Notes under the pieces: generated by a model
What the model saw: the letters and a program-made list of their open reading frames with translations, nothing else
Told to the model about the DNA's origin: nothing
The model's database searches: none
Shown here: positions 32,482-47,916 of the stretch, in pieces
Position numbering within the stretch: position 1 is the first letter of the stretch
Layout: each line of letters opens with the position of its first letter
Program-made: the position numbers and the translations under genes
Source of the DNA: Streptacidiphilus melanogenes
GTDB taxonomy: Bacteria; Actinomycetota; Actinomycetes; Streptomycetales; Streptomycetaceae
Assembly: GCF_000787835.1 (NCBI RefSeq)
Contig: NZ_BBPP01000040.1
Coordinates: 1 to 64,000, forward strand
Reading direction: 5' to 3'
DNA: 64,000 nucleotides

Positions 32482-33378
32482 ATGGAAGAGATCACTTCGG
32501 CTACGGCAGCATCCGGTCTCGGCTCCCGTTCCGCACGCAAGGCCCTCGATGCTCTGGGCGAGCTCAGCGTGCTCGACCCGCTGGCGCGAGCGGCACGCGC
32601 AGCCGTCCGCAGACTTCCGCTCGGACAGTCCCGGGAGGTCCTGCACGGGACCTGGCTTGGACACCCGGTGCATCCGGCCCTCGTGCAGGTCCCGCTCGGC
32701 TCGTGGATGAGCGCCGCGGTGCTCGACCTCGTGCCGGGCAACCGCCGCGCGGCCGCCGCGCTGGTCGGGCTTGGCCTGCTCGGAGCAGGCCCAGGCGCGG
32801 TGGCGGGCTGGGTCGACTGGGCAGAGCAGAGCTCCGAGCAGCAACGCACAGGGCTGGTCCACGCGGCCGCGAACCTGACCGCGACAGGCCTTTACAGCGC
32901 GTCCCTGCTGGCACGCCTGGGCGGTCGCCCGGTCCGGGGCCGGATCCTGGGTTGGTCTGGGCTCACCGTGGCGGCAGTGGGCGGGATCATCGGCGGGCAC
33001 CTCGCCTACCGGCAGGGCACCGGCATGAACCAAGCGGGCGACGTGGCGCAGCTCGCAGAGCCCGGTTGGCAGACGGTGGGGCCCGTCGACGAGCTGCCGG
33101 TCGGCGAGCCGGTCCGCCGCGACGTCGGCGACATCCCGGTCGTAGTGCTGCACCACAAGGACGGCACCGTCCATGTGCTGGCGGAACACTGCAACCACCT
33201 GTCCGGACCGCTGTCGCAGGGCACCCTCGAGGACGACTGCCTGCGCTGCCCCTGGCACGGCAGCCTGTTCCGGCTCAGCGACGGCGAGGTCCTGGAAGGC
33301 CCTGCCACCTCGCCCCAGCCCGCCTTTGCCACCCGGGTCATCGCCGGCTGCCTGCTGATACGCGCCCCCGGCGCGTGA
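32482..33378 (+). CDS. Membrane-anchored Rieske [2Fe-2S] protein with DUF2231 domain
   Basis: The 298-residue protein has an N-terminal DUF2231-type membrane region of about four helices (GTWLGHPVHPALVQVPLGSW, then RRAAAALVGLGLLGAGPGAV and LTVAAVGGIIGGHLAYRQGT) followed by a Rieske domain. The Rieske cluster motif is complete: C237-x-H239 (AEHCNHLSG) and C256-x-x-H259 (CPWHGS). It should carry a Rieske [2Fe-2S] centre on the membrane, perhaps accepting electrons from a cytoplasmic donor. ATG 32482 is preceded by GGAAGGGG at a rather long 14-base distance. Confidence 0.88.
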   Translation: MEEITSATAASGLGSRSARKALDALGELSVLDPLARAARAAVRRLPLGQSREVLHGTWLGHPVHPALVQVPLGSWMSAAVLDLVPGNRRAAAALVGLGLLGAGPGAVAGWVDWAEQSSEQQRTGLVHAAANLTATGLYSASLLARLGGRPVRGRILGWSGLTVAAVGGIIGGHLAYRQGTGMNQAGDVAQLAEPGWQTVGPVDELPVGEPVRRDVGDIPVVVLHHKDGTVHVLAEHCNHLSGPLSQGTLEDDCLRCPWHGSLFRLSDGEVLEGPATSPQPAFATRVIAGCLLIRAPGA

Positions 33379-33452
33379 CCGTGCCCAAGGTACCGACACG
33401 GTGAGCGGACGACTACATTCTGTCGGCACGCAAACAGCTCGAGGTTCAGTCC

Positions 33453-33477
33453 GATTGGGGGATGCGTTGCGGGGTAA
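33453..33477 (+). promoter_or_regulatory. SigB-like promoter candidate upstream of sigma factor gene
   Basis: GATT at 33453-33456 and GGGTAA at 33472-33477 are 15 bases apart, which fits the streptomycete SigB pattern GNNT-N14/16-GGGTAY apart from the last base. The sigma gene starts 82 bases downstream, so autoregulation by a SigB-type factor is plausible but untested. Confidence 0.45.
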
Positions 33478-33558
33478 CCGCTGGCAGAACGCCCCGAAGA
33501 AGGGACGGCCCCCACCACATCCAGTCGTGCGGGTGCACTCCGCCCAAGGACCCGTTCC

Positions 33559-34389
33559 ATGTCCCACTCACGCACACTCGCACTCGACCGGGCACCCGCG
33601 CGGCTGCCCGCGCCGCACGCCGTCGACACCGAAGAAGCCCGCGAGCTGTCCAGGCAGCTGTTCACGCGCCTTCGCGAGCTGGACGAAGGCACCGCGGACT
33701 ACTCCTACGTGCGCAACACCCTGGTCGAGCTGAACCTCGCCCTGGTGCGCTACGCCGTGGCCCAGTTCCGGCACCGCAACGAACCGACCGACGACGTCCT
33801 CCAGGTCGGCATCGTCGGCCTGATCAAAGCGATCAACCGCTTCGACCCCGACCGCAACCTGGAATTCTCCACCTTCGCCCTGCCGACCATCACCGGAGAA
33901 CTCAAACGCTTCTTCCGCGACACCAGCTGGTCGGTCCGCGTGCCCCGCCGACTCCAGGAGCTGCGCCTGCGCCTCGCTAAGGCCACCGACGAACTCTCCC
34001 AGAAGCTCGAGCGCGAACCCACCGACGCGGAACTGGCCGCCGCCCTGGACGTGACCGAGCAGGAGATCGCCGAGGGCCGCACCGCGAGCAATGCCTACAC
34101 CGCCGGGACCCTGGAAGCCCCCGACGACGGCACCGACTGCGAGGGCCCGCAGAGCCGCCGGTTCGGCTACACCGACGCCGCACTGGAGGGCGTCGAGAAC
34201 CTGGAGTCCCTCAAGCCGCTGATCGCCCAGCTGCCCGAACGCGAGCGCACCATCCTTGCCCTGCGCTTCACCGGCGAGCTCACCCAAGCCGAGATCGGCG
34301 CACGCCTGGGCATCTCTCAGATGCACGTCTCACGGCTCCTGTCGCGCGTGCTGGCACAGCTGCGCGAGGCACTCCTGGCCGAACAGTGA
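33559..34389 (+). CDS. SigB/SigF-type RNA polymerase sigma factor
   Basis: The 276-residue protein is a group 3 sigma factor. Region 2 reads YVRNTLVELNLALVRYAVAQ, then VLQVGIVGLIKAINRFDPDR and FSTFALPTITGELKRFFRDT. Region 3 reads WSVRVPRRLQELRLRLAKAT. Region 4 contains LTQAEIGARLGISQMHVSRL as the helix-turn-helix. Factors of this type are held by RsbW-like HATPases and freed by STAS proteins, and three such STAS genes lie in this window. A SigB-like promoter candidate precedes ATG 33559. A paralogue is encoded at 40548-41447. Confidence 0.93.
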   Translation: MSHSRTLALDRAPARLPAPHAVDTEEARELSRQLFTRLRELDEGTADYSYVRNTLVELNLALVRYAVAQFRHRNEPTDDVLQVGIVGLIKAINRFDPDRNLEFSTFALPTITGELKRFFRDTSWSVRVPRRLQELRLRLAKATDELSQKLEREPTDAELAAALDVTEQEIAEGRTASNAYTAGTLEAPDDGTDCEGPQSRRFGYTDAALEGVENLESLKPLIAQLPERERTILALRFTGELTQAEIGARLGISQMHVSRLLSRVLAQLREALLAEQ

Positions 34390-34813
34390 CCGCCCGTCCC
34401 GGCAGGAGATCTGAGCCATCGTCACTCACCCCGTGGAACCGGAAGGCCCACCGCGCCGTGCGCTGAGCGGGATCGCGGCGGAGCGGGATCTCAGCGTCAT
34501 ACGTGGCCTTGTCGGGCTGGTCGCGGCTCGGGCGCCGTCGGCTTGGGTGGATCCGGGTCGGGGTAGGGCAGGGGGTTCGGGTCAGGTCCCGGCTGCGGCA
34601 CCGAGGCGGGCGCGGTGGCGGACACGGCTGCCTCCTCATTCGCTGGACTGCTGTGGACACAGCCTCGGTGGCGGGGCGGTGCACCTGGCTGCGCCTAACC
34701 GGCATCCTTCGGCGGAAACCCTCCATCCCCGCCAGGATGCTGACTGGGTGTACTCCAGGCGATTGCGGGCAGGCGCGTCGCACCGGCATCCCGAATCGGC
34801 AGGAGGCCCGACC
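34390..34813. other. Intergenic region between sigma factor and MFS genes
   Basis: About 420 bases. Apart from the possible small Pro-rich frame on the minus strand (34497-34625) I see no gene. The large in-frame extension of the MFS gene to 34433 is rejected because AGGAGG precedes GTG 34814. Confidence 0.45.
34497..34625 (-). CDS. Possible 42-residue Pro-rich protein
   Basis: A short frame from GTG 34625 reads VSATAPASVPQPGPDPNPLP, then YPDPDPPKPTAPEPRPARQG, and ends at 34497. GAGGAGG lies five bases before the start, which is why I list it. It resembles in style the 82-residue Pro-rich protein encoded at 47668-47916. Pro-rich readings of GC-rich DNA are frequent by chance, so this could be spurious. 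Confidence 0.4.
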   Translation of the reverse strand: MSATAPASVPQPGPDPNPLPYPDPDPPKPTAPEPRPARQGHV

Positions 34814-36337
34814 GTGGACGCGCAACACACCCCGCCCTCCCGGACGCCCACAGGCGCGAGCGGCGGCACAAGCGGAACCGTGACGGATGTCGTCCGGACC
34901 CAGATCCCCGCCCGCCTGGACCGGTTGCCCTGGTCCCGTTGGCATTGGCGGATCGTGATCGGCCTGGGCACCGTATGGATCCTCGACGGGCTGGAAGTGA
35001 CGATCGTCGGCAACATGGCGTCCCGCCTGGCCGAGCAGGGTAGCGGCATTCACATCAGCGCCGCGCAGGTCACCACTTGGGCCGCGGCCCTCTACGTCGC
35101 CGGCGCCTGCTGCGGCGCCCTGTTCTTCGGACACTTGACCGACCGTTTCGGACGCAAGCGCCTGTTCATGATCACGCTTGCCGTCTACCTCTCGGCCACC
35201 GCACTGACGGCCCTGTCCTGGACGGCCTGGTTCTTCTTCCTGTGCCGCTTCCTGACCGGCCTCGGCATCGGAGGGGAGTACGCGGCCATCAATTCCGCGA
35301 TCGACGAGCTCATCCCGGCGCGCGCCCGGGGCCGCATCGACTTGATCATCAACGGCAGCTTCTGGATCGGCGCCGCCGTGGGTGCGCTTGCCTCCATCGT
35401 CCTGCTGAACACCGCGCTGTTCGCCACCGACCTTGGGTGGCGGCTGGCCTTCGGCATCGGCGTCGTACTGGGCCTGGTGATCCTGCTGGTGCGCCGCCAG
35501 GTCCCCGAGAGCCCGCGCTGGCTACTCACACACGGCCGCGCCAAAGAGGCCGAGCGGCTGGTCGACTCCATCGAGCACGAGGTCAGCGAAGAAACCGGGC
35601 ACGACCTGGAGCCCGTCCGCGATGAATTGGCCGTGCAGCAGCGCGGCGTGATCGGCTTCACGACGATCGCCCGCACTGTGCTGCGCGACTACCCGCGACG
35701 GGGCCTACTCGGGCTCGCCCTCTTCATCGGCCAAGCGTTCCTCTACAACTCGGTGACGTTCGGTTACGCGGTCATCCTCACCACCTTCTTCAAGACCCCG
35801 ACCGGCGACACCGGCTACTACTTCGTCGTCATCGCGATCGGGAACTTCCTCGGCCCACTGCTCCTCGGCCGGTACTTCGACACCGTCGGCCGCAAGCCTC
35901 TGATCGCCGGCACCTACATCCTCTCCGGCCTGCTGCTGTTCGGCACCGCCGCCCTGTTCCAGAACGGCATACTGACGGCGGCCACGATGACGGCTTGCTG
36001 GACCGTGGTGCTGTTCTTCGCCTCCGCCGGGGCGAGCGCCGCCTACCTGACCGTCAGCGAGATCTTCCCCCTGGAGACCCGGGCGCTGTGCATCGCCCTG
36101 TTCTACGCGGTCGGTACCGCGCTCGGCGGAATCACCGGCCCCCTGCTCTTCAACGGCCTGGTCAGCAGCGGCAAACCGGCCGACACCACCCTCGCGTTCT
36201 GCATCGGCGCAGGACTGATGTGCGCTGCCGGCCTGGTGGAGGCCGCGATCGGGGTGCGCGCAGAGCGCCGCAGCCTGGAAGACCTGGCCGCACCGCTCAG
36301 CGCCGTGCCGGCCTCTGCATCCGGAGTAGAGGCTTGA
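34814..36337 (+). CDS. MFS transporter (sugar/metabolite:H+ symporter type)
   Basis: The 507-residue protein has about 12 membrane helices. It carries the MFS signature between helices 2 and 3 (FGHLTDRFGRKRLFMITLAV) and its repeat in the second half (LGRYFDTVGRKPLIAGTYIL). RFLTGLGIGGEYAAINSAID matches the AAHS/sugar-porter-like group. The central loop (HGRAKEAERLVDSIEHEVSE) is cytoplasmic. The substrate cannot be inferred. GTG 34814 has AGGAGG seven bases upstream. It is convergent with a PP2C phosphatase gene across a perfect palindrome at 36385-36402. Confidence 0.88.
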   Translation: MDAQHTPPSRTPTGASGGTSGTVTDVVRTQIPARLDRLPWSRWHWRIVIGLGTVWILDGLEVTIVGNMASRLAEQGSGIHISAAQVTTWAAALYVAGACCGALFFGHLTDRFGRKRLFMITLAVYLSATALTALSWTAWFFFLCRFLTGLGIGGEYAAINSAIDELIPARARGRIDLIINGSFWIGAAVGALASIVLLNTALFATDLGWRLAFGIGVVLGLVILLVRRQVPESPRWLLTHGRAKEAERLVDSIEHEVSEETGHDLEPVRDELAVQQRGVIGFTTIARTVLRDYPRRGLLGLALFIGQAFLYNSVTFGYAVILTTFFKTPTGDTGYYFVVIAIGNFLGPLLLGRYFDTVGRKPLIAGTYILSGLLLFGTAALFQNGILTAATMTACWTVVLFFASAGASAAYLTVSEIFPLETRALCIALFYAVGTALGGITGPLLFNGLVSSGKPADTTLAFCIGAGLMCAAGLVEAAIGVRAERRSLEDLAAPLSAVPASASGVEA

Positions 36338-36384
36338 GCCGCCGGATCAGCCCGGCATCGTCCTAGGGCCGAGGGGCACGACCC

Positions 36385-36402
36385 GCACCACCTCGGTGGT
36401 GC
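36385..36402. terminator. Palindrome between convergent genes
   Basis: GCACCACC and GGTGGTGC at 36385-36402 form an 8-bp stem with only two bases between. It lies between the MFS stop and the PP2C stop. It could be a short bidirectional terminator or a protein site; the tiny loop makes a simple hairpin less favourable. Confidence 0.35.
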
Positions 36403-36433
36403 CGCCGCCGGTCTTCGCGTGCACGCCTGTCTG

Positions 36434-37705
36434 TCAGGGCAGTCCGGTCAGGTCGGCTGCTTGGGTGGAGGGCTGCGGGTCGGTGCCGAGCCATTCGCAG
36501 AACAGGATGGTCGCGTCGTCCTGCAGTTCGCCGTGGTGGTAGTCCAGGACCGCGTGCACAATGCGGCGCAGCGTCTCGGGCACGGGAAGGCCGTCGGCGT
36601 GATAACGCAAGAGGAGTTCGACGAACCGCGCGAGGCCGAACTCGGGGCCGCCCGCGCGCCGGGCCTCGGTGATGCCGTCGGTGTACATCACGATCCGGTC
36701 GCCTGGTTCGAGCTGCTCACGGCACAGCGTGAGGGGCAGGCCGAGGTCCGTGCCCATGGGGTGGGCGGGCTCGCACCGCAGGCTGGCGGTCCAGCGCCCG
36801 GCTCGGATGATCAACGGGAGGTGGTGTCCGCGGTTGACGAAGGTGAGCTGGCCGCTGGTGGTGTCCAGGTCGGCGAGGATGCCTGTGGCGTAGCGGCTGC
36901 GGTGGAATTGTTCGAGCAGGTCTGCCTCGATCCGTTCGCTCGTCTCCACCAGGGAGCAGCCCTGGCGTCGGGAGCTGCGGCAGGTGGCCATGGCCAGGTT
37001 CGCGGTCAGTCCGGCGGCGGTGTCGTGGCCCATGGCGTCGAAGATCGACAGGTGGACGTGCGTGCCGGCCGTGGCGTAGTCGTAGGCGTCGCCGCTGACC
37101 TGGTACGCGGGCTCCAGGGCCGCGGCGATGACCACGCGCCCGTCGGCGTAGGTGCGCGGGGGCATCAGATGCCACTGCATCTCGGCGCCGACCGACATCG
37201 GGGCGGTGCGGGTCAGGCGGGCATAGGAGTCACTTCGGTCGCGCTTGCTCGCGACGGCCAGGGCGGTCAGCGCCGCCAGGGCCTCGATGTCCCCGCGGAC
37301 AGCATCGTCCTCGCGCGCGGTGCTGACCTGCAGGACACCCAGGCGCTCGGTGCCGTTGAGCATGGGGACCCACCACCGGCGCGGGCCGCCGGGCTGTTCC
37401 GAGCCGGCGGCGAGGATCTCCCCGACCTGGTAGGCGCGGCCCGCGAGGGTCCCGTCGATCCGCAGCTCGGCGGGATCACTGCCGGGGTCCTGGCCCGCGT
37501 CCTGGCCCTTGCCGGTGAGCAGCCGCAGGTGCCGAAGTTCCAGGTCCGCCAGGTAGACCAGCACGTGCGTGAATCCGGCCAGGGCGGCGCAGCCGTCCAG
37601 AGTTTCGGGAAGGGTCTCCAGCGGCATCAGGTGGCTGGCCGAGAGCAGGCCCGACAGCATCCGCCGGGCCGGGCCGTCCCACTGGTTCGTCTCGGCCACG
37701 GTCAT
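36434..37705 (-). CDS. SpoIIE-type PP2C serine/threonine phosphatase with GAF-like domain
   Basis: The 423-residue protein has an N-terminal GAF-like region (GFTHVLVYLADLELRHLRLL, then PMLNGTERLGVLQVSTARED) and a C-terminal SpoIIE/RsbU domain with EPAYQVSGDAYDYATAGTHV, LSIFDAMGHDTAAGLTANLA and DRIVMYTDGITEARRAGGPE. The Asp residues in these motifs bind Mn/Mg. It should dephosphorylate a STAS protein and so act as an upstream switch for a sigma factor. ATG 37705 was chosen because the conserved start (TVAETNQWDGPARRMLSG) begins there; longer starts are Arg-rich. Confidence 0.88.
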   Translation of the reverse strand: MTVAETNQWDGPARRMLSGLLSASHLMPLETLPETLDGCAALAGFTHVLVYLADLELRHLRLLTGKGQDAGQDPGSDPAELRIDGTLAGRAYQVGEILAAGSEQPGGPRRWWVPMLNGTERLGVLQVSTAREDDAVRGDIEALAALTALAVASKRDRSDSYARLTRTAPMSVGAEMQWHLMPPRTYADGRVVIAAALEPAYQVSGDAYDYATAGTHVHLSIFDAMGHDTAAGLTANLAMATCRSSRRQGCSLVETSERIEADLLEQFHRSRYATGILADLDTTSGQLTFVNRGHHLPLIIRAGRWTASLRCEPAHPMGTDLGLPLTLCREQLEPGDRIVMYTDGITEARRAGGPEFGLARFVELLLRYHADGLPVPETLRRIVHAVLDYHHGELQDDATILFCEWLGTDPQPSTQAADLTGLP

Positions 37706-38024
37706 CTCGATCACCGCCACAGGTGAGGGCGCACGTTCGCCCTTCAGTCTTCCGGTCGGCGCGCTGTCGTGCACCCGGGATCGCATGCGGGCCGAAGGCC
37801 GGGGCGGCACCCTCGCTTGCGGCCTTCGCCACCGATGGCACAACCAGCACGGAAGCACCCCCTCGTGGTGGATGGCCGGTGCCCTCGTTGACTCTGCACC
37901 TGCCCGTGGCTGCTACCCATCTGGTCAGCTGCCCCCGACCGTAGGGGGTGCGGGCGTCGCCATCGACGCATACGCGATCGCCCGCAGGGAAGACGCAGCG
38001 ACACCGACCATGAGGAGGCCTGTC
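37706..38024. other. Divergent intergenic region
   Basis: About 320 bases between the PP2C gene (minus) and the DUF3040 gene (plus). No gene is supported. It should contain both promoters. Confidence 0.4.
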
Positions 38025-38219
38025 ATGGAGGCAAGGGACGGGCCCGCACTCTCGCGGCGCGAGCAACAGGCGCTGACAGACATCGAGCGCGAGCTCCAGC
38101 AAGACGAGGAACTCGACCAGTCACTGCGCACCATGCGATTGCCTCGGCCCCGGTGGCTGCGTTCCCTGCGGCGGCGCAGCCGGCGTGACGGCCGCGGGCA
38201 GGGCAGTAGTGCCAGGTGA
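38025..38219 (+). CDS. DUF3040 family protein, short form
   Basis: The 64-residue product reads MEARDGPALSRREQQALTDI and ERELQQDEELDQSLRTMRLP, the DUF3040 signature, then a basic end. Longer family members continue with two membrane helices; this one stops before them, so it may be a soluble short form or truncated. ATG 38025 is preceded by GAGGAGG. Function is unknown. Confidence 0.8.
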   Translation: MEARDGPALSRREQQALTDIERELQQDEELDQSLRTMRLPRPRWLRSLRRRSRRDGRGQGSSAR

Positions 38220-38335
38220 GGCGGGCGCTCCGCCAACCGGAATGGATGAACCGTCCCTGCCCCGCTCGTCGACGCCCGCCGCCGCCCGCCCGTTGGGACA
38301 CGAACATCTCCACTCCCACGAGCCGCCTCGCCCCG

Positions 38336-38359
38336 GTTTGTGTTCTCGCCGACGGGTCA
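38336..38359 (+). promoter_or_regulatory. SigB-like promoter candidate
   Basis: GTTT at 38336-38339 and GGGTCA at 38354-38359 are separated by 14 bases, close to GNNT-N14/16-GGGTAY with two mismatches in the -10 box. The membrane protein gene starts 50 bases downstream. Confidence 0.35.
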
Positions 38360-38409
38360 CACGCGGTCATGACGGACCGTTCGAAAACCTTTGACGGAAG
38401 GAACCCGGA

Positions 38410-38808
38410 ATGCTGCTCCTGCTCGGCCTACTCCTGCTCTGCGGCACCGCGGCCTTCACCGGCTTGCTCATCGCGGACAACCTGTCCGGAGGCCCGGACT
38501 ACTCGGTCACGATCCTCGGGAACACGATCGCGACCATGAACAGCCTGGAGATCTTCCTCTCCGGCCTGGCCCTGGCGCTGATCTTTTGCTTCGCCCTCGC
38601 CCTGATGGGCATCGGCGGACGGCTGTCGAGTCGACGCCGCGCCCTGCTGCGCAGCTCGCACGGTGCGCACGCGGCCACGCCGCACGCCACGACCGCTCGG
38701 GCCGACACCGACGTAGCCGTCGACGAAGCGACCGGGACCCCGGCCGGGACGGCTGCCGGTACACCGGCGCGTTCGCACCGTCCGCATCGTCATCTGTTCG
38801 GACACTGA
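38410..38808 (+). CDS. Small membrane protein with His-rich tail, 132 aa
   Basis: The product has two membrane segments (MLLLLGLLLLCGTAAFTGLL and LEIFLSGLALALIFCFALAL) separated by a short extracytoplasmic loop, then a long Ala/Thr/His-rich cytoplasmic tail ending SHRPHRHLFGH. ATG 38410 follows GGAAGGAACCCGGA. A SigB-like promoter candidate lies upstream, in keeping with a stress membrane protein. I know no characterised homologue. Confidence 0.7.
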   Translation: MLLLLGLLLLCGTAAFTGLLIADNLSGGPDYSVTILGNTIATMNSLEIFLSGLALALIFCFALALMGIGGRLSSRRRALLRSSHGAHAATPHATTARADTDVAVDEATGTPAGTAAGTPARSHRPHRHLFGH

Positions 38809-38885
38809 TCCCGATCCGGGCAGACGGCGCCCGCGAGCCGGGTCGCAGCCGGGATGAGCGCTCCGTCTGGCCAGCACGCCGTCGG

Positions 38886-39410
38886 TTACCGGCTTGCTCC
38901 GCCAGGCGGAGCTTCGTCGTCACGGCCGGGTGCGTCGCGCCGGCGCAGGTGCAGTGGGAGGGCGAGCCAGCACAGCGCGAACCAGACCAGCACTGCGGCG
39001 ACGATCGGCCAGGCGGCCCAGCCCAGCCCGGCGACGCGAAGCAGCAGGAGCAGCGCCGCCCCGATCGCGGCCGCCAGCAGGCACACCCCGACCGCCACCA
39101 GACGGCTGACTGCTCCGACCATGTGTGATTTGACGTGGTGCCCGGCAAGGAGCCGGTGGTAGGTGACCGGCGCGATCAAAGTGCCGGTCGCGAGAGCGCC
39201 GAGGACGACCACGACGACGTACAGGCCGCGGTCGAAACCATGCAGCCGCGCGAACCTATCGGTGAAGGCCACCGAGAGCAGGAAGCCGAACATGATCTGC
39301 GATCCGGTCTGGGCGATCCGCACCTCCTGCGTCAGATCCGACCAGCGCCGGTCCGCTGACTGCGCCTGGGTCTCATGGCGCTCCCGCGCGCCCACCTCCT
39401 CGTCACTCAC
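38886..39410 (-). CDS. DUF6328-like four-helix membrane protein
   Basis: The 174-residue protein begins VSDEEVGARERHETQAQSAD and has RWSDLTQEVRIAQTGSQIMF before the first membrane helix, a pattern typical of the streptomycete DUF6328 group. Four membrane helices follow (FGFLLSVAFTDRF, GLYVVVVVLGALATGTLIAP, LVAVGVCLLAAAIGAALLLL and AAWPIVAAVLVWFALCWLAL). GTG 39410 has AGGAGG upstream. Function is unknown. Confidence 0.8.
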   Translation of the reverse strand: MSDEEVGARERHETQAQSADRRWSDLTQEVRIAQTGSQIMFGFLLSVAFTDRFARLHGFDRGLYVVVVVLGALATGTLIAPVTYHRLLAGHHVKSHMVGAVSRLVAVGVCLLAAAIGAALLLLLRVAGLGWAAWPIVAAVLVWFALCWLALPLHLRRRDAPGRDDEAPPGGASR

Positions 39411-39527
39411 GGCGCAACCTCCTGACTCCACCCGTCACAGCGGGCTACGACAGGCTCCTAACCCGAAAGCCCGAAGCCACGCCCACGTGCCGCTCCCGTT
39501 GCAGGCCCAGGGGATTCGGGGTCCTGG

Positions 39528-39742
39528 TCAGCCCTTGGGTGCGCCGGCCGCAAGGGCGATAACGATCGGGAGCGCGAACAGGACCACGACACAGGCTGCG
39601 CGAAGTTCAGGGTCCGGCCGAACCCGATCCGTTTGGGCACGAGAAGCCGCCGGTCGTCTCGGTTGAAGTAGAACTGGCCGGCCTTCCAGCAGCGGTCGTC
39701 GTCCCAGTTCACATGCTGCTCCCCGGCCGCAAAGCCGATCAC
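39528..39742 (-). pseudogene. Frameshifted DUF5808-like protein fragment
   Basis: The first part reads HVNWDDDRCWKAGQFYFNRD, then RRLLVPKRIGFGRTLNFAQP, which is the DUF5808 core. The following membrane helix (VVLFALPIVIALAAG) is in another frame. A single missing G near 39585, in a G-run, would join them (PVSW then VVLFALP). No clear start lies upstream. It is either a remnant or a small gene hit by a homopolymer error. Confidence 0.65.
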
Positions 39743-40102
39743 CGCGCCGTCCGGGGGGACGCGCCATGAGTGGCCGGTCAGGACCGAACCGGAGATCAGG
39801 GGCGAACGGCGCGAATCGGTGCCTGGCCTGGCGGACGGACAGCGCGGTCCAGGTCGTGGTCTTGGGCCTGCCGCGTTGGCGCAGGCATGCGGATGAGGCG
39901 GAGGGGCCAGCGGAGTGGAGCCACCATGCGTGCCCAGGCCTGGCCAGTTCCGGTCCGGGCGTTAGTCACGGATTCGATGCAAGATTGAGGTCCGATCGCT
40001 GGGCGGGGGCGGGGCGTTTGGCCAGGGGCGTCTGCGCGTCCTTCATGACACGAAATGGATGTCGCGTTTGCAATGCCGTGATAATCGGGTCATTGTGGGG
40101 GG
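39743..40102. other. Intergenic region before the winged-helix gene
   Basis: About 360 bases with no supported gene. The promoter of the 40103 gene should lie near the right end; GATAATC at about 40080 is a possible -10 region. Confidence 0.35.
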
Positions 40103-40444
40103 ATGGAGCAGGAGACCACCACGCCTCGGGCGACCCGGTGGACGTTCCTGACAAGCCATGCACGGGTCCTTGCCCAGATCGCCCGCGACCCCGGCATCCG
40201 GGTGCGCGACATCGCTGCGCGCTGTCTGCTGACCGAGCGGGCGGTGCAGCGCATCATCGCCGACCTTGAAACGGGCGGCTACCTCAGCCATGCCCGCAAC
40301 GGACGTGGGAACCGGTACCGGGTCCAGCACGGCACCAGGCTTCGGCACCCCGCCGACGCCGGCCCCACGGTGGACGACCTGTTGGCTGTCCTGACCGCAC
40401 AAGCCCAGCGACCCGACGACGTTCTGGCGCCGCGGCACCCATGA
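40103..40444 (+). CDS. Winged-helix transcriptional regulator (paralogue of 17681 product)
   Basis: The 113-residue protein reads TRWTFLTSHARVLAQIARDP, then GIRVRDIAARCLLTERAVQR and IIADLETGGYLSHARNGRGN, nearly identical over the DNA-binding part to the protein encoded at 17681-18037. Only the wing tip and the C-terminus differ. GGGGGG sits directly before the ATG. The sigma factor gene starts 103 bases downstream on the same strand, so it may control that gene. Confidence 0.8.
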   Translation: MEQETTTPRATRWTFLTSHARVLAQIARDPGIRVRDIAARCLLTERAVQRIIADLETGGYLSHARNGRGNRYRVQHGTRLRHPADAGPTVDDLLAVLTAQAQRPDDVLAPRHP

Positions 40445-40547
40445 GACCGGCCACCAGCCGTCACGGGCATGAAGCCCATGGCGGCGGGCACACTTTCGCG
40501 GCCCATGCACGCGGAGCCGCATCAGCATCGAGGAGGGAAGAGAGACC

Positions 40548-41447
40548 GTGTCCACGGCATCCGCCCATCCGACACACAACAGCTCCGACCGCTCGCTCAC
40601 GACGCTGCCCGCTGCCGCCCAGGACGAAGTCCGCGAGGCGGTGGCTGGGACGGCCCCGATCTCCTGCGACCCGGTGACGCTTGAAGTGATGGAGATCCGG
40701 GCGCTGACGGACGTGCTGCTGCTGCGGCTTCGCGAGCTGGAGGAGGGCAGCGCCACCTACTCCTACGTCCGCAACACCCTGGTCGAACTCAACATGAGCC
40801 TGGTCCGCACCGCAGCCCAGCGGTTCGCGCACCGCCGTGAATCGGTAGAGGACGTCCTCCAGGTCGGTGTCATCGGGCTGATCAAAGCCATCAACGGCTT
40901 CGATCCGCACCGAGAGGTCGAATTCGTCACCTACGCCCTGCCCACCATCACCGGCGAGATGAAGCGCTTCTTCCGCGACACCAGCTGGGCGGTCCACGTA
41001 CCGCGACGCCTCCAGGAGCTGCGCCTGCAACTCGCCAAGGCCGGCGAGGCGCTGGAGCACGAACTGGGCCGGGAACCCACCCGCCACGAACTCGCCGCCC
41101 GCCTCGACACCACCGAGGAAGAGGTCACCGAAGGCCTCCTCGCCAGCGACGCCTACACCGCCGGCACCCTGGACCCCCCAGCCGGGGACGAGGAAGGCGA
41201 CAGCCCCCTCCAACGTCGCCTCGGCGCACTTGACCGTGACCTGGAGAACATCGTCGACCTCACCGCGCTGCGGCAGATCCTCCCCACCCTGCCGGAGACC
41301 GACCAGCGCATCCTCGCCCTGCGCTTCGCCGAGGACCTCACCCAGAGCGAGATCGGGGACCGCATCGGCTGCTCCCAGATGCAGGTCTCCCGGCTCCTCG
41401 CCCGCATCCTGGCCGAACTGCGCGCCCAACTCGACGACGAGCGGTAG
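40548..41447 (+). CDS. SigB/SigF-type RNA polymerase sigma factor
   Basis: The 299-residue protein is closely related to the sigma factor at 33559. Region 2 reads YVRNTLVELNMSLVRTAAQR, then VLQVGVIGLIKAINGFDPHR and FVTYALPTITGEMKRFFRDT. Region 3 follows with WAVHVPRRLQELRLQLAKAG, and region 4 contains LTQSEIGDRIGCSQMQVSRL. Start GTG 40548 follows an AGGAGGGAAGAGAG tract. Paralogous sigma genes suggest separate stress branches that may share the HATPase/STAS partners here. Its stop lies 12 bases from the stop of the convergent terpene-synthase-like gene. Confidence 0.93.
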   Translation: MSTASAHPTHNSSDRSLTTLPAAAQDEVREAVAGTAPISCDPVTLEVMEIRALTDVLLLRLRELEEGSATYSYVRNTLVELNMSLVRTAAQRFAHRRESVEDVLQVGVIGLIKAINGFDPHREVEFVTYALPTITGEMKRFFRDTSWAVHVPRRLQELRLQLAKAGEALEHELGREPTRHELAARLDTTEEEVTEGLLASDAYTAGTLDPPAGDEEGDSPLQRRLGALDRDLENIVDLTALRQILPTLPETDQRILALRFAEDLTQSEIGDRIGCSQMQVSRLLARILAELRAQLDDER

Positions 41448-41459
41448 CCACGCAACCCT

Positions 41460-42458
41460 TCACACCACCGTCGTCCACTCCAGATAGGCGCGCGGATACC
41501 CCAGCAGCACCTGGGCCAGCCGTACGAGGCCGTCCCTTTCGGACGAGGCGAGGGACTGGACCGAGAACACCTCGGGCAGCCGCTCGGCCTCCCGCTCCAT
41601 CTGTCCGCAACGGACCTCGATACGGCGAACCACCCGCTCGGCCGCCGCGTCGAGAGGCAACCTCGCCTGCTGCGCGACCGCCATCACGTGGTTCACGACC
41701 CAGGTGACACCAGAACCGGCCTCGGCCGCGGCGATGTCCTGGCACCAGGCCGTGACGTCGTTGACCCCGTGGACCAGGGCCCGCCAGGCATTGGACCGGT
41801 ACACATCCGCCGGCACCGGCACGCCCAGGAGAACCTCGGGCAGGTCGAACAGCCATGGGCAGTTCACCGCACGCCGCAGCGCCGGGTACCGGTCCGGCGC
41901 GGGGATCCGCCTCAGCGCCGCGTAGTGCGCCTGCTGGGCACGTGCCCGTTGGTGCTGGCGCAGGTGGTAACGGAACCGGCGCGCCCACATGCCGTCGGGG
42001 AGCGGCCTGGTGCGCTGCCACAGCCCACCCGCGGCGTGGCCTGGATCCCGGTCGCGTGAGGCGGCACCGGCCGAGCAGGCCGCCAGCCACGCCTCGAACA
42101 GTTCCGGCAGGCTCCGGCCGTCGGCGGCCAGAGCCTGCCGGTCGGGGTGCAGGGTGGCGGACCATGCGGCCCACTGGCCGAACAGGACCGCAGCGGTGGG
42201 AGCAGCGTCGGGGAGGCAGTAGGAGGCGAGCGTGCCGAAGGTCGAAGTGCCGTCCAAGCCGGCGTCCGCCGCCCAGGAGCCCACCGCCGATTCGATCTCC
42301 GCCACGTCGTCATGCACGGGCGAGGGCCCGGACAGGAGCGGGATCCGAGCCTGCAGCGACTCCAGAACCGCAGGGCCGCCCACCTGCCGTCGCGTCTCTG
42401 CCGGGTCGGTGGGGTCGCTGTTTGAGTCTGCGGCGGTACCTTGATGGCCCGTCACCAC
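41460..42458 (-). CDS. Terpene-synthase-like protein with degenerate metal-binding motifs
   Basis: The 332-residue protein has the size and layout of bacterial class I terpene synthases, including LWQRTRPLPDGMWARRFRYH, VNCPWLFDLPEVLLGVPVPA and the helix H region VHGVNDVTAWCQDIAAAEAG. The motifs needed for Mg-diphosphate ionisation are missing. The region expected to hold the Asp-rich DDxxD reads WAAWSATLHPDRQ, and the NSE triad NDxxSxxxE reads QDIAAAEAG, keeping only the Asp. It is thus probably inactive as a cyclase or has a new role. GTG 42458 (or 42455) follows AAGGA; the long upstream extension was rejected. No prenyl-transferase or P450 gene is adjacent. Confidence 0.75.
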   Translation of the reverse strand: MVTGHQGTAADSNSDPTDPAETRRQVGGPAVLESLQARIPLLSGPSPVHDDVAEIESAVGSWAADAGLDGTSTFGTLASYCLPDAAPTAAVLFGQWAAWSATLHPDRQALAADGRSLPELFEAWLAACSAGAASRDRDPGHAAGGLWQRTRPLPDGMWARRFRYHLRQHQRARAQQAHYAALRRIPAPDRYPALRRAVNCPWLFDLPEVLLGVPVPADVYRSNAWRALVHGVNDVTAWCQDIAAAEAGSGVTWVVNHVMAVAQQARLPLDAAAERVVRRIEVRCGQMEREAERLPEVFSVQSLASSERDGLVRLAQVLLGYPRAYLEWTTVV

Positions 42459-42915
42459 TGGCGTCCTTGCGACCGTGCCGCCGGTTCGTCGAGTTGGACG
42501 GTGGTGAGAGCGGCCGGGTGCATGGCACGAGCGTAGGCCACTGCACGGGCGGAGCGGCTTGGGGCGCACGCGGTGTTCCCGACCGGTTTCACAAGGCGGT
42601 TTGGCCAGGTCACCCTGCGCTGGCGCCGTCTGCTTCTCTCCGGTGTGGGCGCCGGCAGAGGAGGCGAAGGTACGCTGACGGGGTGCGGCGCCGTGGCAGA
42701 CCGCTGCGCTCAAGCGGGGCGGCCGGCTCGAAGTGGCGGACATCCTGGCACATCATCAAAGCCCGGCTGCTGTTGGCAGTCCCATCACGCCGCCAGGGCA
42801 AGAATCCCCGCATGATCGCGGCGCCGGGCCGGCCCTGCCTCCAGTCTGTCCTGGCGAACCTGTGGATGCCGTCGGCGCCGGTGAACCGGCGTCCGCACGT
42901 GGGGACGGATATGGC
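42459..42915. other. Intergenic region upstream of the terpene-synthase-like gene
   Basis: About 460 bases with no supported coding sequence. It should carry the minus-strand promoter of the terpene-synthase-like gene. No repeat or motif was seen. Confidence 0.4.
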
Positions 42916-43300: not shown

Positions 43301-45118
43301 TCACAGTTGCACGGCGAGTGCCGCGCACAGGGCCGCGACACCCACGGCGAGCCACGCCAGGTAGTCGCCCAGGTGTCCGGAGTGCAAGCGGCGCAGCGCG
43401 CGGACGGTGCGGGCGGCCGGGTGGGAGCGGCGCAGACGAGGGCCGCGCGCGTGGACGGCGGCCGCCGCCAGGGCGACGGCCAGCCCCGTGGACAGCAGGC
43501 CCAGCAGAACACCGGCCACCGTCCATCCCGTGGCCGGCGCGGGCACGGCCAAGGGACCGGCGTGCCCGGTGGTGACCGTAGCTGTGTAGTGGGCAGGGTC
43601 GGTGAACACCGCGGCGCCGTGCGCGAGCGCGGCGGCGAAGCCCGGCAAGCAACCGGCCACGGCAGCGAGAACCAGGAGAAGCGCCGGGACGAGGGTCAAC
43701 GTCGCGGGCAGGGTCCGCTCGGGGGACCGGATCTCGGGCTCCTCGCCCTCACCCGTGGTCTCCTCCGAGTCCGGCGCATCGGCGGGCACGGGGCCAGCGC
43801 CCCAGAAGATCCGCAGGCCTGCACGAAGGACGGCTCCCCCGGTGACGGCCGAGGCCACCACGAACACGACCGGCAGCCACGGTTGCCAGCGTGAGGCCGC
43901 GTCCTCGCTGAGGGCCTTGCCCAGCCCGGTGCCGAACGGCGGCAGGCCGACCAAGGCCAGCGCGCCGACGACGAACAGCACGCCCACGGCGCGCAGCCCC
44001 CGGGCCCTGCCGTGCAGACCGTGCTCGTCGACGGAGCCGTAGCGGTCCAGCAGCACGCCGGTCAGCGCGAAGAGCGCGGCTTTGACGCAGCCGTGCGCAG
44101 CGACGTAAACGGCGGCGCCCGCGACGCCGGCCGGGGTGAGCAGCGCGACGGCGGTCAGGAAGAGGCCGATATGGCTGACGGTGGAGAAGGCGAGCAGGCG
44201 TTTGAGGTGCCGTTGCTGCCAGCACATGAGCGCGCCGACCAGGGCGGTGAGCACTCCGAGCGCCGCGAAGGTGGTCCGGAACGCCGTATGCGGGATACCG
44301 CCCGGCCCTGCGAACACGGTCCAGTAGACGCGGGCGACGCCGTAGACGCCGAGTTCAACCATGACGCCCGACATCAGCATGCAGACCGGAGTCGGCGCGA
44401 CCGCGTGGGCGTCGGGCAGCCAGAAGTGGAAAGGCACGACGGCCGCCTTGACGAGCAGCGCGGTGCAGATCAGCACGAACGCGACAACGGTGAGTACGTC
44501 TGTGGGGTGGGAGGCCAGGTGCTGGCCGAGGCGGGCGAGGTTCAGCTCGCCCGTGCGCGCGTACAGCAGGCCGATGCCGAGCAGGGAGCAGTAGGCGGAG
44601 AAGGAGGTGACGATGCCGAAGGTCAGCGCTCCCTGGAGCGGTCGGGGGTCCTCGATGTGGTAGCCGGTGAGCGCGTAGGCGGCGGCGCCCATGAGTTCGA
44701 AGAACACGAAGGCGTTGAACAGGTCGCCGGTGAGGGCGAACCCGGCCATGCCGGCCTCGAAGAGCAGGATCAGGGCAGGGAAGACGCCGGCGTGCTCGCC
44801 CCGCGGTTCCTCGAAGTACCGCCAGGAGTACACGATCACGGCGAGGACCAGCACTCCGACCAGAACCGCCAGCCCGGCCCCGATCGGGTCGGCGGCCAGC
44901 ACGATGCCCACGCTGGCGGGCCAGCCGCCGAGAGCGGAGACGCCGGTGTCGCCGCTGCGGGTCCACACCAGGGCCAGGCAGACCAGTTCGGCGGTGGCGG
45001 CGGTCGTCGCGACGATGTCGCAGCCGGTCCGTGGCAGCCAGCGGCCCACGACGGCCAGCAGCGTGGCGCCGAGCAGCGGGATCGCGACGGCCAGCGGCAG
45101 CAGATGGGCTGCGGTCAC
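43301..45118 (-). CDS. mrpD: MrpD-like proton-antiporter subunit (complex I ND2/4/5 family)
   Basis: The 605-residue protein has about 14 membrane helices and the hallmark segments of the ND5/ND4/ND2-MrpA/D family: [20 protein letters not shown] (with the helix-5 Glu), [20 protein letters not shown] (the conserved Lys and HxWLPDAHxxAPTP) and [20 protein letters not shown]. The Lys/Glu pairs carry protons across the membrane. It closes a cluster of seven genes on this strand. MrpD in Mrp antiporters works beside MrpA, but only one large antiporter-like subunit is encoded here. GTG 45118 lies just downstream of the C subunit gene stop. Confidence 0.92.
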
Positions 45119-45124
45119 GGTCCG

Positions 45125-45472
45125 TCAACCCTTCAGGCCGGTCAGGGCCTGCGGGTCGACGGTGTGGTGGCGTTTGCGCAGCTGGATGGTCAGGGCGAGC
45201 AGCAGTGCAGTGACGGTGGCGCCGACGACGACATCGGTCAGGGCCAGGGCCTGGACGACGGGGTCGACCACGGGCCGGGTTCCGGGGGTGAGGTCCGAGA
45301 AGACGGGGGCGGTGCCGTTGCTGCGGTAGCCGACCGCCAGGAGGAGGAGGTAGGTGGAGGACTGGGCGACGGCGAGGCAGCCGATGGCGTGGATGAGGTT
45401 GCGGCTGGTGACCAGCCCGTACAGGGCGATGAGCAGGACCCATCCGGCGGCGAGGTAAGGCCCGATGCCCAT
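45125..45472 (-). CDS. mrpC: MrpC/NuoK-like antiporter subunit
   Basis: The 115-residue protein has three membrane helices (YLAAGWVLLIALYGLVTSRN, LIHAIGCLAVAQSSTYLLLL and ALALTDVVVGATVTALLLAL) and the NuoK-type DPVVQALALTDVVVG segment found in MrpC and NuoK. It is a small proton-path subunit of the Mrp complex. ATG 45472 abuts the stop of the preceding gene, so the genes are translated together. Confidence 0.93.
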   Translation of the reverse strand: MGIGPYLAAGWVLLIALYGLVTSRNLIHAIGCLAVAQSSTYLLLLAVGYRSNGTAPVFSDLTPGTRPVVDPVVQALALTDVVVGATVTALLLALTIQLRKRHHTVDPQALTGLKG

Positions 45473-46243
45473 TCAGGTGCCTCCCTGGGCATTGGCGTCA
45501 GGCGTGTCTCGTTGCTCGGGGTCACCGATTTCGACGGCCTGGTCGAGGAAGTGGGCGAGCAGCGCGATCAGGCCGGAGGCGACCTCGACGCCGACCGCGG
45601 CGTTGAGGACCGGGACGGTGCCGCCGGAGGTGATCTCGTTGAACGTGCCCAGCGGCGCGATGTTCTTCAGGAACGCACCAGCGACGATCAGCCCGGTCAG
45701 GCCGATGATGCTGTAGGAAGCGGCGGCAATGGAGTCCGCGACGTCCAGAACGGCCAGCGGCCGCAGGCGTTTGAGGACGCGATAGTCGGCGGCGACATAG
45801 GCCAGGTGCAGGGCGGTCGCCAGAACGACGCCGCCCTGGAAGCCGCCGCCGGGACTGAGCTGGCCGTGCGCGACGATGTAGACGCCCACGATCAGGGCGA
45901 CGGGCAGCAGCAGCGCCCCAAACAGGCGGGTGGTCGTCATGACATCCTCGGCCTGCGCGCGGACGTGGCGTTCGTCGCGGGCCCGGCGCAGCAACAGCGT
46001 CGCGCCGAGCACGGTCCCGAACAGGATCGACTCCTCGCCCAGGGTGTCGAAGGCCCGGGTGTCGAAGTTGACCGAGGAGATGACGTTCGCGGTCCGGTGC
46101 TCCAGTGCTGCTGCCACCGCGCGGTCGCCGTAGGGGTGACTGGCCGACCCGAAAGCTGGGAGCCGGACACACGCGACAGCGAAGAAGACCGCGATCACCG
46201 CGGCGGCGGCCAGGAACATGAGCAGCCGGGCGCGCGCCGTCAC
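45473..46243 (-). CDS. mrpB: MrpB with N-terminal MbhE-like (MrpA C-terminus) segment
   Basis: The 256-residue protein joins two pieces. Residues about 1-90 (TANVISSVNFDTRAFDTLGE, then ESILFGTVLGATLLLRRARD) match the C-terminal end of MrpA, called MbhE in membrane-bound hydrogenases. Residues about 100-240 are MrpB (RLFGALLLPVALIVGVYIVA, then HGQLSPGGGFQGGVVLATAL). The MnhB-type fused layout is known in archaea and actinobacteria. GTG 46243 overlaps the stop of the preceding gene by four bases. Confidence 0.88.
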   Translation of the reverse strand: MTARARLLMFLAAAAVIAVFFAVACVRLPAFGSASHPYGDRAVAAALEHRTANVISSVNFDTRAFDTLGEESILFGTVLGATLLLRRARDERHVRAQAEDVMTTTRLFGALLLPVALIVGVYIVAHGQLSPGGGFQGGVVLATALHLAYVAADYRVLKRLRPLAVLDVADSIAAASYSIIGLTGLIVAGAFLKNIAPLGTFNEITSGGTVPVLNAAVGVEVASGLIALLAHFLDQAVEIGDPEQRDTPDANAQGGT

Positions 46244-46539
46244 GTCCTCTCCGGGTCCGAGCCCTCGTTGCGATTACTGGACAGGTCGCTGCTCCCGTCG
46301 TCGGGACGGCGGGTCACCTTGCGGACGCTGAGGAGGATCAGGAGCGGGGTCAGCGCGGTGCCGACGGCGAGTTGGGACAGCGCCACGTCGGGGGCCTGCA
46401 GCACGGCGAAGAGCACCGCAAGGCCAAGCCCGAGCGCGGACAGGACCACCGCCTGCCGGGCCGGATCGCGTGTGAGCACCGCGAGGGTGGCGGCGAGTAC
46501 GACGAAGACGACAGCTATCCCGATCAGCCACTGGTCCAC
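46240..46539 (-). CDS. DUF4040 / MbhD-like antiporter subunit
   Basis: The 99-residue protein carries three membrane helices and the DUF4040 core (RQAVVLSALGLGLAVLFAVL, then QAPDVALSQLAVGTALTPLL). This segment is normally the middle part of MrpA and is separate in membrane-bound hydrogenase operons (MbhD). With the MbhE-like start of the next gene it supplies the MrpA C-terminal region, while the N-terminal antiporter domain of MrpA is not seen. GTG 46539 is preceded by GAGGGGA. Confidence 0.9.
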   Translation of the reverse strand: MDQWLIGIAVVFVVLAATLAVLTRDPARQAVVLSALGLGLAVLFAVLQAPDVALSQLAVGTALTPLLILLSVRKVTRRPDDGSSDLSSNRNEGSDPERT

Positions 46540-46847
46540 TATGTCCCCTCCTCTTGTTGGTCGTCGCCTTCGGCCTGGCGGGAGGCACGTGCGATGGCGA
46601 TCGTGGTGACCGTGCCTCCGACGGCGAAGAGCAGCCCGATGAACAGCGTCTTGACCGCGGACCGGCCTGCCCCTTGGTCGACTGCGATGGCCGCAGCGAT
46701 CAGGGGGACTCCGGCCACCGACGCCGGAGCCAGGCCGTGCAGCCGCATCAGCGTCCCGCGTAGCCGCACCACGGCCACCGCGGAGAGCAGCACGCACGCC
46801 ACTCCCGCCCACAAGAGGAACAGGACAACATCGTGACGCGCAGTCAC
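46539..46847 (-). CDS. mrpG: MrpG-like antiporter subunit
   Basis: The 102-residue protein has three helices with the MnhG signature: FLLWAGVACVLLSAVAVVRL, then RGTLMRLHGLAPASVAGVPL and VKTLFIGLLFAVGGTVTTIA. It belongs to the small EFG module that probably forms the outer face of the Mrp complex. GTG 46847 overlaps the MrpF stop by four bases. Confidence 0.92.
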   Translation of the reverse strand: MTARHDVVLFLLWAGVACVLLSAVAVVRLRGTLMRLHGLAPASVAGVPLIAAAIAVDQGAGRSAVKTLFIGLLFAVGGTVTTIAIARASRQAEGDDQQEEGT

Positions 46848-47134
46848 TGTCGTTCTCCTTCACGAGCGGGGCGGACGTCGCGGCGCGCTCCGATCACGAA
46901 GCGGGTGAAGACCAGCGTGCCGGCGGGCGCGAGAACGCCCAGCATCAACGCGAGGTCCTGGTAAGAGGGCCGGTCGTAGGCCTGCGGCAGCAGCAGGAAC
47001 ACGGCGCCGATCACCGTCGACAGCAGCGACGCCCCGGTTAGACGGCGCACCGCCGTTCCACGCGCCACCACCCACAGACACGCGGGAACCGAAACGGCCA
47101 GCAGGACTAGGGCGGCCGCGGCCCAGGCGTTCAC
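46844..47134 (-). CDS. mrpF: MrpF-like antiporter subunit
   Basis: The 96-residue product starts VNAWAAAALVLLAVSVPACL and continues TGASLLSTVIGAVFLLLPQA, then LALMLGVLAPAGTLVFTRFV. This is the three-helix MnhF/MrpF plan. GTG 47134 overlaps the stop of MrpE by four bases, continuing the translational coupling. Confidence 0.9.
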   Translation of the reverse strand: MNAWAAAALVLLAVSVPACLWVVARGTAVRRLTGASLLSTVIGAVFLLLPQAYDRPSYQDLALMLGVLAPAGTLVFTRFVIGARRDVRPAREGERQ

Positions 47135-47622
47135 CGAGTCCCTCCCGGATCGCGGTCTTCCGCGAGGGCGCGTTCGACTGGGCCCTTGCCTGGACGCAGA
47201 GTGTGCACGACCACCTCGTCCGGGCACGGCACGTCGACCACGCAGGTGTCCGGGGAGGCCCCGAGCAGCACACCGGCCCAGCCGGCGTCCGCGCCCGGCC
47301 GCAACCTGATACGGCGCACAGCCGCATCCGCCGGATTCGCCAGCGCGGCGACGAGTACGGCCAGGCCGCGCAGGACCGCGCGTGGCAGTGCGAGCACTGC
47401 CGCGACCGCACCGCGGACACCTGTGAGGCGAACTCCGGCGATGCGGCGCATCCGTACCGCCGCCAGGGCCCCGCCCACGGCCGCCACACCCGCGACCAGC
47501 AGCTCGACCGGCGTGACGGAACTGATGAACACCACCGTCAGCCCGGCCAGCACCGCCCACCACACCACGAACTCGACCACCGCACGCAACCCAAGCCTCC
47601 CAACCCCACCACACTCGACCAT
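47131..47622 (-). CDS. mrpE: MrpE-like antiporter subunit
   Basis: The 163-residue protein has N-terminal membrane helices (AVVEFVVWWAVLAGLTVVFI, then VELLVAGVAAVGGALAAVRM and VAAVLALPRAVLRGLAVLVA) and a soluble tail with SPDTCVVDVPCPDEVVVHTL, typical of MnhE. MrpE is the first gene of the Mrp cluster. It starts 45 bases after the stop of the Pro-rich gene, so the run of minus-strand genes from 49334 to 43301 could be one long transcript. Confidence 0.9.
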   Translation of the reverse strand: MVECGGVGRLGLRAVVEFVVWWAVLAGLTVVFISSVTPVELLVAGVAAVGGALAAVRMRRIAGVRLTGVRGAVAAVLALPRAVLRGLAVLVAALANPADAAVRRIRLRPGADAGWAGVLLGASPDTCVVDVPCPDEVVVHTLRPGKGPVERALAEDRDPGGTR

Positions 47623-47667: not shown

Positions 47668-47916
47668 TCAGTCGGGTGGCTCCTGCGGGTGCGCCTCGCT
47701 GGGCCGGGGCGGTTCAGGGGCCGGACCGGGCTCGGGGCCGGGGGCGGGCTCGCCCGGGCCCCGGGGCTCCGGCGGCGGAACCGGCCGGCCAGGCGGCTCC
47801 GGCGGATCCGGTGTCACCGGCGGCTTCACCGGATCCGGCGGGCCGGGCGGTGACGGGGGATCAGGCGGCGGCACAGGGGTGATATCGGGGTCGGGCGGTA
47901 CAGGGACGGTGCCCAT
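47668..47916 (-). CDS. Proline-rich protein, 82 aa
   Basis: The product is almost wholly PxP and DPP repeats (MGTVPVPPDPDITPVPPPDP at the start and GPEPGPAPEPPRPSEAHPQE near the end). It has no membrane segment or known motif. ATG 47916 is preceded by AGGAG and lies nine bases after the stop of the plasmid-stabilisation-like gene. Low-complexity reading in GC-rich DNA is a caution, but the start site and position in a tight gene run support it. Confidence 0.6.
   Translation of the reverse strand: MGTVPVPPDPDITPVPPPDPPSPPGPPDPVKPPVTPDPPEPPGRPVPPPEPRGPGEPAPGPEPGPAPEPPRPSEAHPQEPPD

Follow-up and report, generated by a model that had tools for sequence, protein, structure and literature searches.

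A seven-gene, MrpA-less (group 3) Mrp-type operon with exchanged ion-path residues in Streptacidiphilus melanogenes

Operons of the Mrp type that lack mrpA are referred to as "group 3" Mrp, and a stand-alone example, mrpEFGBB'CD of Pyrococcus furiosus, has been published (PMC8415708); the arrangement as such is therefore not new. Deletion of that operon altered the acidification response and lessened the Na+ stimulation of H2 production; the system takes part in the pH response, uses Na+ as coupling ion and has a driving force that is called unknown (PMC8415708). The operon described here lies at positions 43301-47622 of the minus strand of contig NZ_BBPP01000040.1 of Streptacidiphilus melanogenes, within positions 1 to 64,000 of that contig (64,000 nucleotides; "the window"). 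Seven tightly packed open reading frames (ORFs), transcribed from 47622 to 43301, follow in the order E-F-G-MbhD-(MbhE+MrpB)-C-D. The system is a variant of group 3 Mrp, not a new kind of system; what appears to be new, as judged from the sequences, is a distinct clade with exchanged core charges.

With the P. furiosus operon (PF1147-53) it shares seven genes in the same order, a single antiporter-like subunit and the lack of both MrpA and an energy-input module; in P. furiosus MbhD and MbhE are fused and MrpB' is separate, whereas here MbhE and MrpB are fused (EB), and the P. furiosus Mrp is reported to keep several ion-path residues (PMC8415708). Of the sequences in the PDB, those most similar to D, MbhD, EB, C and F belong to the antiporter parts of the membrane-bound sulfane reductase (MBS, PDB 6u8y) and membrane-bound hydrogenase (MBH, PDB 6cfw), and MbsE of MBS carries the same fusion. 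Compared with MBS/MBH, the operon has no hydrogenase or reductase module, Glu for Lys in transmembrane helix 8 (TM8) of MrpD, Gln for Glu in MbhD and extra MrpD helices; compared with MBH, Asp37/His41 of MrpC are changed to Gln/Tyr. Classical Mrp of groups 1 and 2 (PDB 6z16, 7qru, 7d3u) has homologous C, D, E, F, G and B subunits and MrpA C-terminal parts; against it, the operon is without the MrpA N-terminal antiporter domain or lateral helix, and cation-site residues are exchanged. A further kind of group 3-like operon, with multiple antiporter genes, for which Nitrospira is the literature comparison (PMC7784846), was found in loci L117, L121, L179 and L190; as here, C and D genes stand with an MbhD segment nearby (matches: F, EB, C, D in L117; F, MbhD, EB, C, D in L121), but two to three further antiporter genes are present, the MbhD Glu is kept, and neither the Asp of MrpC nor the C-terminal motif of MrpD described below occurs in any of the four.

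Classical Mrp is defined by an MrpA with its N-terminal antiporter domain in the operon, and none is there; an mrp-type operon with mrpD and without mrpA, the definition of group 3 (cation/proton antiporter family 3, CPA3), is what was found, and all Mrp domains expected of group 3 (B, C, D, E, F, G and MrpA C-terminal parts) are present. Linked hydrogenase or sulfane reductase genes, as in MBH/MBS, are lacking, and so is the NuoH with peripheral arm genes of a respiratory complex I cluster. The operon is accordingly classed as group 3, with putative cation/proton exchange.

The exchanged ion-path residues, which the preliminary description of the locus had missed, seem on the alignments a more unusual feature than the gene arrangement. 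In MrpD the central Lys of TM8, present in 5/5 solved D chains shown, is replaced by Glu255; TM5 Glu141, TM7 Lys224, Lys306, His342, Lys346 and TM12 Lys401 are retained (27/27 Streptomycetaceae sequences). The MbhD segment reads SQLAVG, with Gln56 where MBH and MBS have Glu and Gly60 where Mrp has Glu. The fusion protein has the motif FDTLGE, with Asp66 and Glu70 in 27/27 Streptomycetaceae sequences. MrpC shows Q37, S38 and Y41 (Asp37/His41 in MBH; His37/His40 in Mrp) and has gained Asp79, next to the T75c position, where Ala or Ser stands in the four relatives shown; MrpF has Arg and Ser in the D29f and D35f columns. Read together, the published columns H37c, H40c/H41g, D37g, E706a/E69d, D29f and D35f are Ser, Tyr, Gln, Gly/Gln, Arg and Ser in the window; one His each of MrpG and MrpE is kept (8 and 7 sequences aligned). 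In Mrp of Anoxybacillus flavithermus and in MBH, these positions have been given roles in binding the cation, in its path or in linking the proton half-channels; the A. flavithermus Mrp is inactivated by D35L, and for several species E706 is reported to be essential (PMC7419157). Glu687 of MrpA is called strictly conserved, models of the Mrp pathway being in conflict (PMC9568556); a review lists the essential residues of classical Mrp (PMC5703873). Two classical ion-path residues, the TM8 Lys of MrpD and the MrpA-C/MbhD Glu, are thus missing, which is not a family-defining criterion.

The structure of MrpD was predicted with a mean local distance difference test score (pLDDT) of 90.6 and a template modelling score (pTM) of 0.93; the core of the model (residues 1-518) matched Mrp D chains with Z-scores of 40-46. 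Two further helices follow (534-556 and 583-604). Among the 50 structural matches listed, the alignment reached residues 585-589 with NuoL/ND5-type chains only, chain 9f5x_V being one that we take to be of this type. As for features of the NuoL/MrpA type, a helix after TM14 permits alignment with NuoL/ND5 to residue 588; as just ~26 residues connect it to the last helix, the prediction contains no long lateral helix. By analogy, the two added helices would form a cap over the side that receives MrpA or a redox module.

The preliminary description had held that the MrpA N-terminal domain is missing and had proposed a search of the genome for a separate MrpA. This search was made (8.77 Mb, 107 contigs, completeness given as 100) and none was found in the assembly, whether beside the cluster or elsewhere. 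PF00361 was detected at seven places: in MrpD of the operon and in three proteins each on contigs C78 and C58; the latter six are NuoL/M/N of two nuo clusters, neither on the contig of the operon. TIGR00940 (MrpA) gave no match above the model cut-off in the genome, and MnhB occurs once genome-wide. The two complex I clusters on C78 and C58 (L059, L060) each carry NuoH in addition to NuoL/M/N.

MrpD matches were obtained in 64/150 Streptomycetaceae genomes (E ≤ 1e-60), 48/197 genomes of the order (E ≤ 1e-80) and 17/396 genomes of the phylum (E ≤ 1e-65); six weaker phylum matches that were fetched (L116-L121) are MrpD of operons with MrpA or several antiporter genes. Among 26 fetched family relatives (MrpD 53-95% identical), all seven genes stand in the same order in 20 (tblastn), with no MrpA; in the remaining 6, tblastn gave no match for one or two short genes from among E, G and MbhD. 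Recurrence of the seven-gene order in relatives rules out chance or mis-read frames. A scan of named genomes, taken as the best 80 of 580 loci, added 41 clade loci, two of them duplicating earlier ones; these clade loci come from Streptomyces, Kitasatospora, Actinacidiphila, Nocardia, Amycolatopsis, Pseudonocardia, Micromonospora and Actinomadura, together with metagenome bins, a few of which are labelled Planctomycetales, Phycisphaerales, Acidobacterium, Deltaproteobacteria or Rhodospirillales and may be mis-binned. The operon belongs to a distinct clade, mostly of Actinomycetota, whose fetched loci are without MrpA and redox module. No description of this actinobacterial clade was found in the literature searched, which did not extend to subscription papers and so does not prove it to be unpublished. 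Spread by plasmids was considered and is unsupported (a partial match, 71% of the query at 59% identity, in 1/72,556 records).

Residues were counted in 81 clade loci (79 distinct after removal of two duplicates) and in a comparison set of 45 loci; as the loci are related, they do not count as independent events. A single antiporter-like gene was found in 77/79 clade loci, the gene being split in the other 2. Position TM8: Glu 65, Pro 6, Asp 2, Gln 1, Ala 1, Val 1, unread 3 (Lys 0/76 read); MrpC-79: Asp 74, Asn 1, unread 4 (Asp 74/75); MbhD positions 56/60: no carboxylate in 70/74 read, 5 unread; C-terminal D..W motif of MrpD: 73/79 clade loci versus 0/45 comparison loci, as scored in an alignment fixed to the columns of the window, which a shifted motif would escape. 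In the comparison set, TM8 Lys was found in 42 of the 45 (missing in L121, L166 and L183), Asp at MrpC-79 in 0/43 read and the MbhD carboxylate in 27/32 read (missing in 5). The best-scoring antiporter row was read for each comparison locus; in L172 and L195 that row looks like MrpA. Clade locus L105 deviates at several sites and looks decayed. MrpD copies that are split or fragmentary (L113, L159, G054, G123) possibly reflect decaying operons or assembly errors; genome G046 carries two copies of the clade MrpD.

A phylogeny of MrpD, also called for in the preliminary description, placed 43 clade rows on one side of a branch with a Shimodaira-Hasegawa-like approximate likelihood ratio test (SH-aLRT) value of 100. 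It was a quick tree (338 columns, key residues left out, Streptomyces rows thinned). A first tree with 46 clade rows needed two label changes; one was enough after the fragments of the split L113 gene, the degenerate L105 and two ORFs of nuo contigs that are not antiporters had been dropped. The neighbours of the clade are two NuoN-type rows and one other, all on long branches, and do not fix the exact sister.

Within the 150 Streptomycetaceae genomes, the clade MrpD was found in 64, MrpA/B-type Mrp in 23 and both in 1 (G032); Fisher p 1.8e-5, a value that ignores shared ancestry. MrpA/B-type was taken as MnhB in a frame of at least 950 amino acids (aa; 22 genomes) or a separate 185-aa MrpB frame (G015); the fragments in G054 and G123 were counted as clade MrpD, and G104 and G114 (broken MnhB matches) were left out of the MrpA/B-type set. 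The clade complex may replace MrpA-type Mrp in Streptomycetaceae.

The reading preferred here, with a probability of roughly 0.55, is a free-standing group 3 Mrp complex of seven subunits, probably a ~1:1 cation/H+ exchanger with a rebuilt coupling site. Classical Mrp is believed to owe two proton paths to its two antiporter-like subunits. Here MrpD would be the only antiporter-like, proton-path subunit, and MrpC, MbhD, MbhE/B, F, G and E would form the small-subunit tip. We infer that the subunits assemble and exchange a monovalent cation for protons, the larger of the two gradients driving the exchange; with a single proton path and without another antiporter subunit, exchange would at its simplest be one H+ per cation with no net charge, that is, near 1:1 and electroneutral. 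Because the published ligands are exchanged, proton/cation coupling could not use them; the coupling step would be expected at the MrpC/MbhD/MrpD junction, where the gained Asp79 of MrpC and Glu255 of MrpD may form a rebuilt acidic site beside the retained Glu141/Lys224 pair of MrpD and the Asp66/Glu70 exit of MbhE. As to physiological role, pH or salt balance under stress would be a guess. The preliminary description had taken a free-standing antiporter with one ion path to be one of two possibilities, and the absence of MrpA from the genome, the lone antiporter-like gene in nearly all clade loci and the lack of a common flanking gene (below) agree with it.

Several observations weigh against this reading. 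Glu is kept at MbhD-56 in 4/74 readable clade loci, and Pro at TM8 in six clade loci means that an acidic residue there is not required clade-wide. Seven archaeal stretches, which look methanogen-like by gene content, were fetched as extra comparison only. The hydrogenase-linked archaeal loci L240 and L244 (2/2 read) have Gln and Met in place of the TM8 Lys, so that loss of this Lys alone is not special to the clade; L244, the only one of the two with MbhD read, keeps the MbhD Glu. In 7/45 comparison loci a single antiporter ORF is seen and yet TM8 Lys is kept, the three of these that were opened being cut or rearranged operons. The rarity of both Mrp types in one genome may reflect shared ancestry, and the view of "lost ligands" depends on one model of an ion pathway that is disputed (PMC9568556). 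L240 and L244 carry NuoB/C/D/H-type and hydrogenase-like genes beside an MBH-like block, and their MrpC has Asn at the Asp position of the clade.

A further step, put forward tentatively and held less probable than the preferred reading, would make the clade a separate Mrp class, with a lone antiporter subunit, a relocated charge network (TM8 Lys to Glu in MrpD, loss of Glu from MbhD, gain of Asp in MrpC), different coupling chemistry and stoichiometry, possibly a different ion, and a C-terminal cap in place of MrpA. The loss of the known cation ligands, among them the counterparts of D35 and E706 with their mutational record (PMC7419157), would also suit a complex that assembles but moves another substrate instead of Na+/K+ for H+ (ammonium or an anion, or only H+, in which case it would act as a regulated leak or pH sensor); this is thought rather unlikely, because the proton-path residues, the MbhE exit acids and one His each of MrpG and MrpE are retained and the new Asp beside the T75c position suggests a rebuilt, not a dead, site. 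Less probable still is an ordinary group 3 Mrp, a Na+/H+ antiporter serving the pH response with residue changes as tolerated drift: the gene set and order of P. furiosus and its deletion phenotype speak for it, but the changes hardly vary over many genera, a pattern better explained by selection than by drift, and the P. furiosus Mrp, known here from its published description, is reported to keep several of the residues (PMC8415708).

Docking to another complex, the other possibility raised in the preliminary description, is now disfavoured. It is highly improbable that the operon encodes the membrane arm of a redox complex, docking as in MBH/MBS to a catalytic module from elsewhere in the genome, even though MBS has the same order of subunits and the same fusion of MbhE with MrpB, MbhH is the PDB sequence nearest to MrpD, and L240 and L244 show a block of this kind next to NuoB/C/D/H-type genes. 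No hydrogenase or complex I genes were found among 20 neighbour proteins scanned, in agreement with the earlier statement that no hydrogenase or oxidoreductase module is adjacent; queries of the NuoB/C/D/H/I type, which do match control loci, gave 0 matches in the window and in 0/81 clade loci (nine of these are <9 kb, their gene content being judged in part only; no search was aimed at an MbhI-like linker subunit). Among 27 loci, no family of flanking genes is common beyond near relatives, the window included, and such variation between loci argues against docking to a complex encoded by neighbours; the extra MrpD helices would, by analogy, lie over the side used for docking. The largest flanking family (FAM 0, 12 loci) was rejected as a conserved partner: it lies at varied distances and on both strands, and sits just upstream only in the window and L039-L042.

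Table 1. Genes of the Mrp-type operon, in order of transcription (positions in the window; E values of Pfam and PDB matches).
Gene	Length (aa)	Position	Strand	Matches	Remarks
mrpE-like	163	47131..47622	-	MNHE in 4/7 family members	SPDT...VHTL segment kept, resembles MrpE cytoplasmic domain
mrpF-like	96	46844..47134	-	MrpF_PhaF 1.3e-8; profile matches MBH/MBS/Mrp F chains	GTG start; 4-base overlap with mrpE stop
mrpG-like	102	46539..46847	-	PhaG_MnhG 1.1e-11	
MbhD/DUF4040-like	99	46240..46539	-	MbhD 2.2e-17; 6u8y_D 2e-9; 6cfw_D 1.5e-6	Equals proximal part of MrpA C-terminal domain
MbhE+MrpB (MbhF) fusion	256	45473..46243	-	MnhB 1.2e-21; residues 24-237 vs 6u8y_E 9.7e-24	Fusion as in MbsE
mrpC-like	115	45125..45472	-	Oxidored_q2 (PF00420) 6.8e-17; 6u8y_G 1e-14; 6cfw_G 2.7e-14	Extra Asp79 in TM3
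mrpD-like	605	43301..45118	-	PF00361 3.5e-56; best PDB 6cfw_H 1.3e-48	Glu255 for TM8 Lys; two added C-terminal helices; SGHxGDYxxW motif

Domains were assigned by Pfam and NCBIfam profile searches of the window proteins (Table 1). All seven frames of the Mbh-like order given in the preliminary description were recovered. Its remark that the genes overlap by one to four bases or abut holds for the first five junctions (E/F, F/G and MbhD/EB, 4-base overlap; G/MbhD, 1-base overlap; EB/C abutting), not for C/D, where a 6-base gap is present. In the fusion protein MnhB is preceded by an MbhE-like stretch (Pfam E 1.8e-4, under the cut-off of that model); an apparent MbhD+EB fusion in loci of some relatives was resolved into two genes by separate start codons. 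The mrpE product by itself gave no Pfam match, and PF01899 (MNHE) finds nothing across the whole genome; the assignment is suggested by the aligned family members (best MNHE match 1.4e-7) and by a profile made from them, which gave weak matches (0.0015, 0.04 and 0.078) to the MrpE chains of MBS, MBH and Mrp. The top row of that profile search, a designed repeat protein (3.6e-7), was taken as spurious, no single stretch passing. A sigma-B-like promoter before mrpE is not supported: a loose pattern gave seven sites in the window and 0 within 300 bases upstream of mrpE. Directly upstream of mrpE, on the same strand, lies a very proline-rich putative ORF of 82 aa (47668-47916).

The region 25020-41447 of the window is rich in regulators: a hybrid kinase with five HAMP stretches (25020-28502), SpoIIE-type phosphatases (28618-30897 and 36434-37858) and sigma-70-family factors with regions 2-4 (33559-34389 and 40548-41447). 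The sigma factor nearer to the operon belongs to a family (FAM 8) that recurs in 4/27 loci, the window included; the ORF between this factor and the operon (41460-42743) matches terpene synthase family 2, C-terminal, with 63 bits.

Mrp is close kin of the proton-pumping arm of complex I, and the coupling of its proton and cation halves is disputed (PMC9568556). A natural and widely conserved complex without MrpA, the TM8 lysine and the cation-site glutamate would reveal what the machinery can do without, and its exchanged residues point to single mutations by which the coupling models could be told apart. The clade is present in named Streptomyces, Kitasatospora, Micromonospora, Nocardia and Amycolatopsis records (within the best 80 of 580 loci); if the separate class is true, its members would have a coupling chemistry unlike that of the Mrp and complex I relatives with solved structures.

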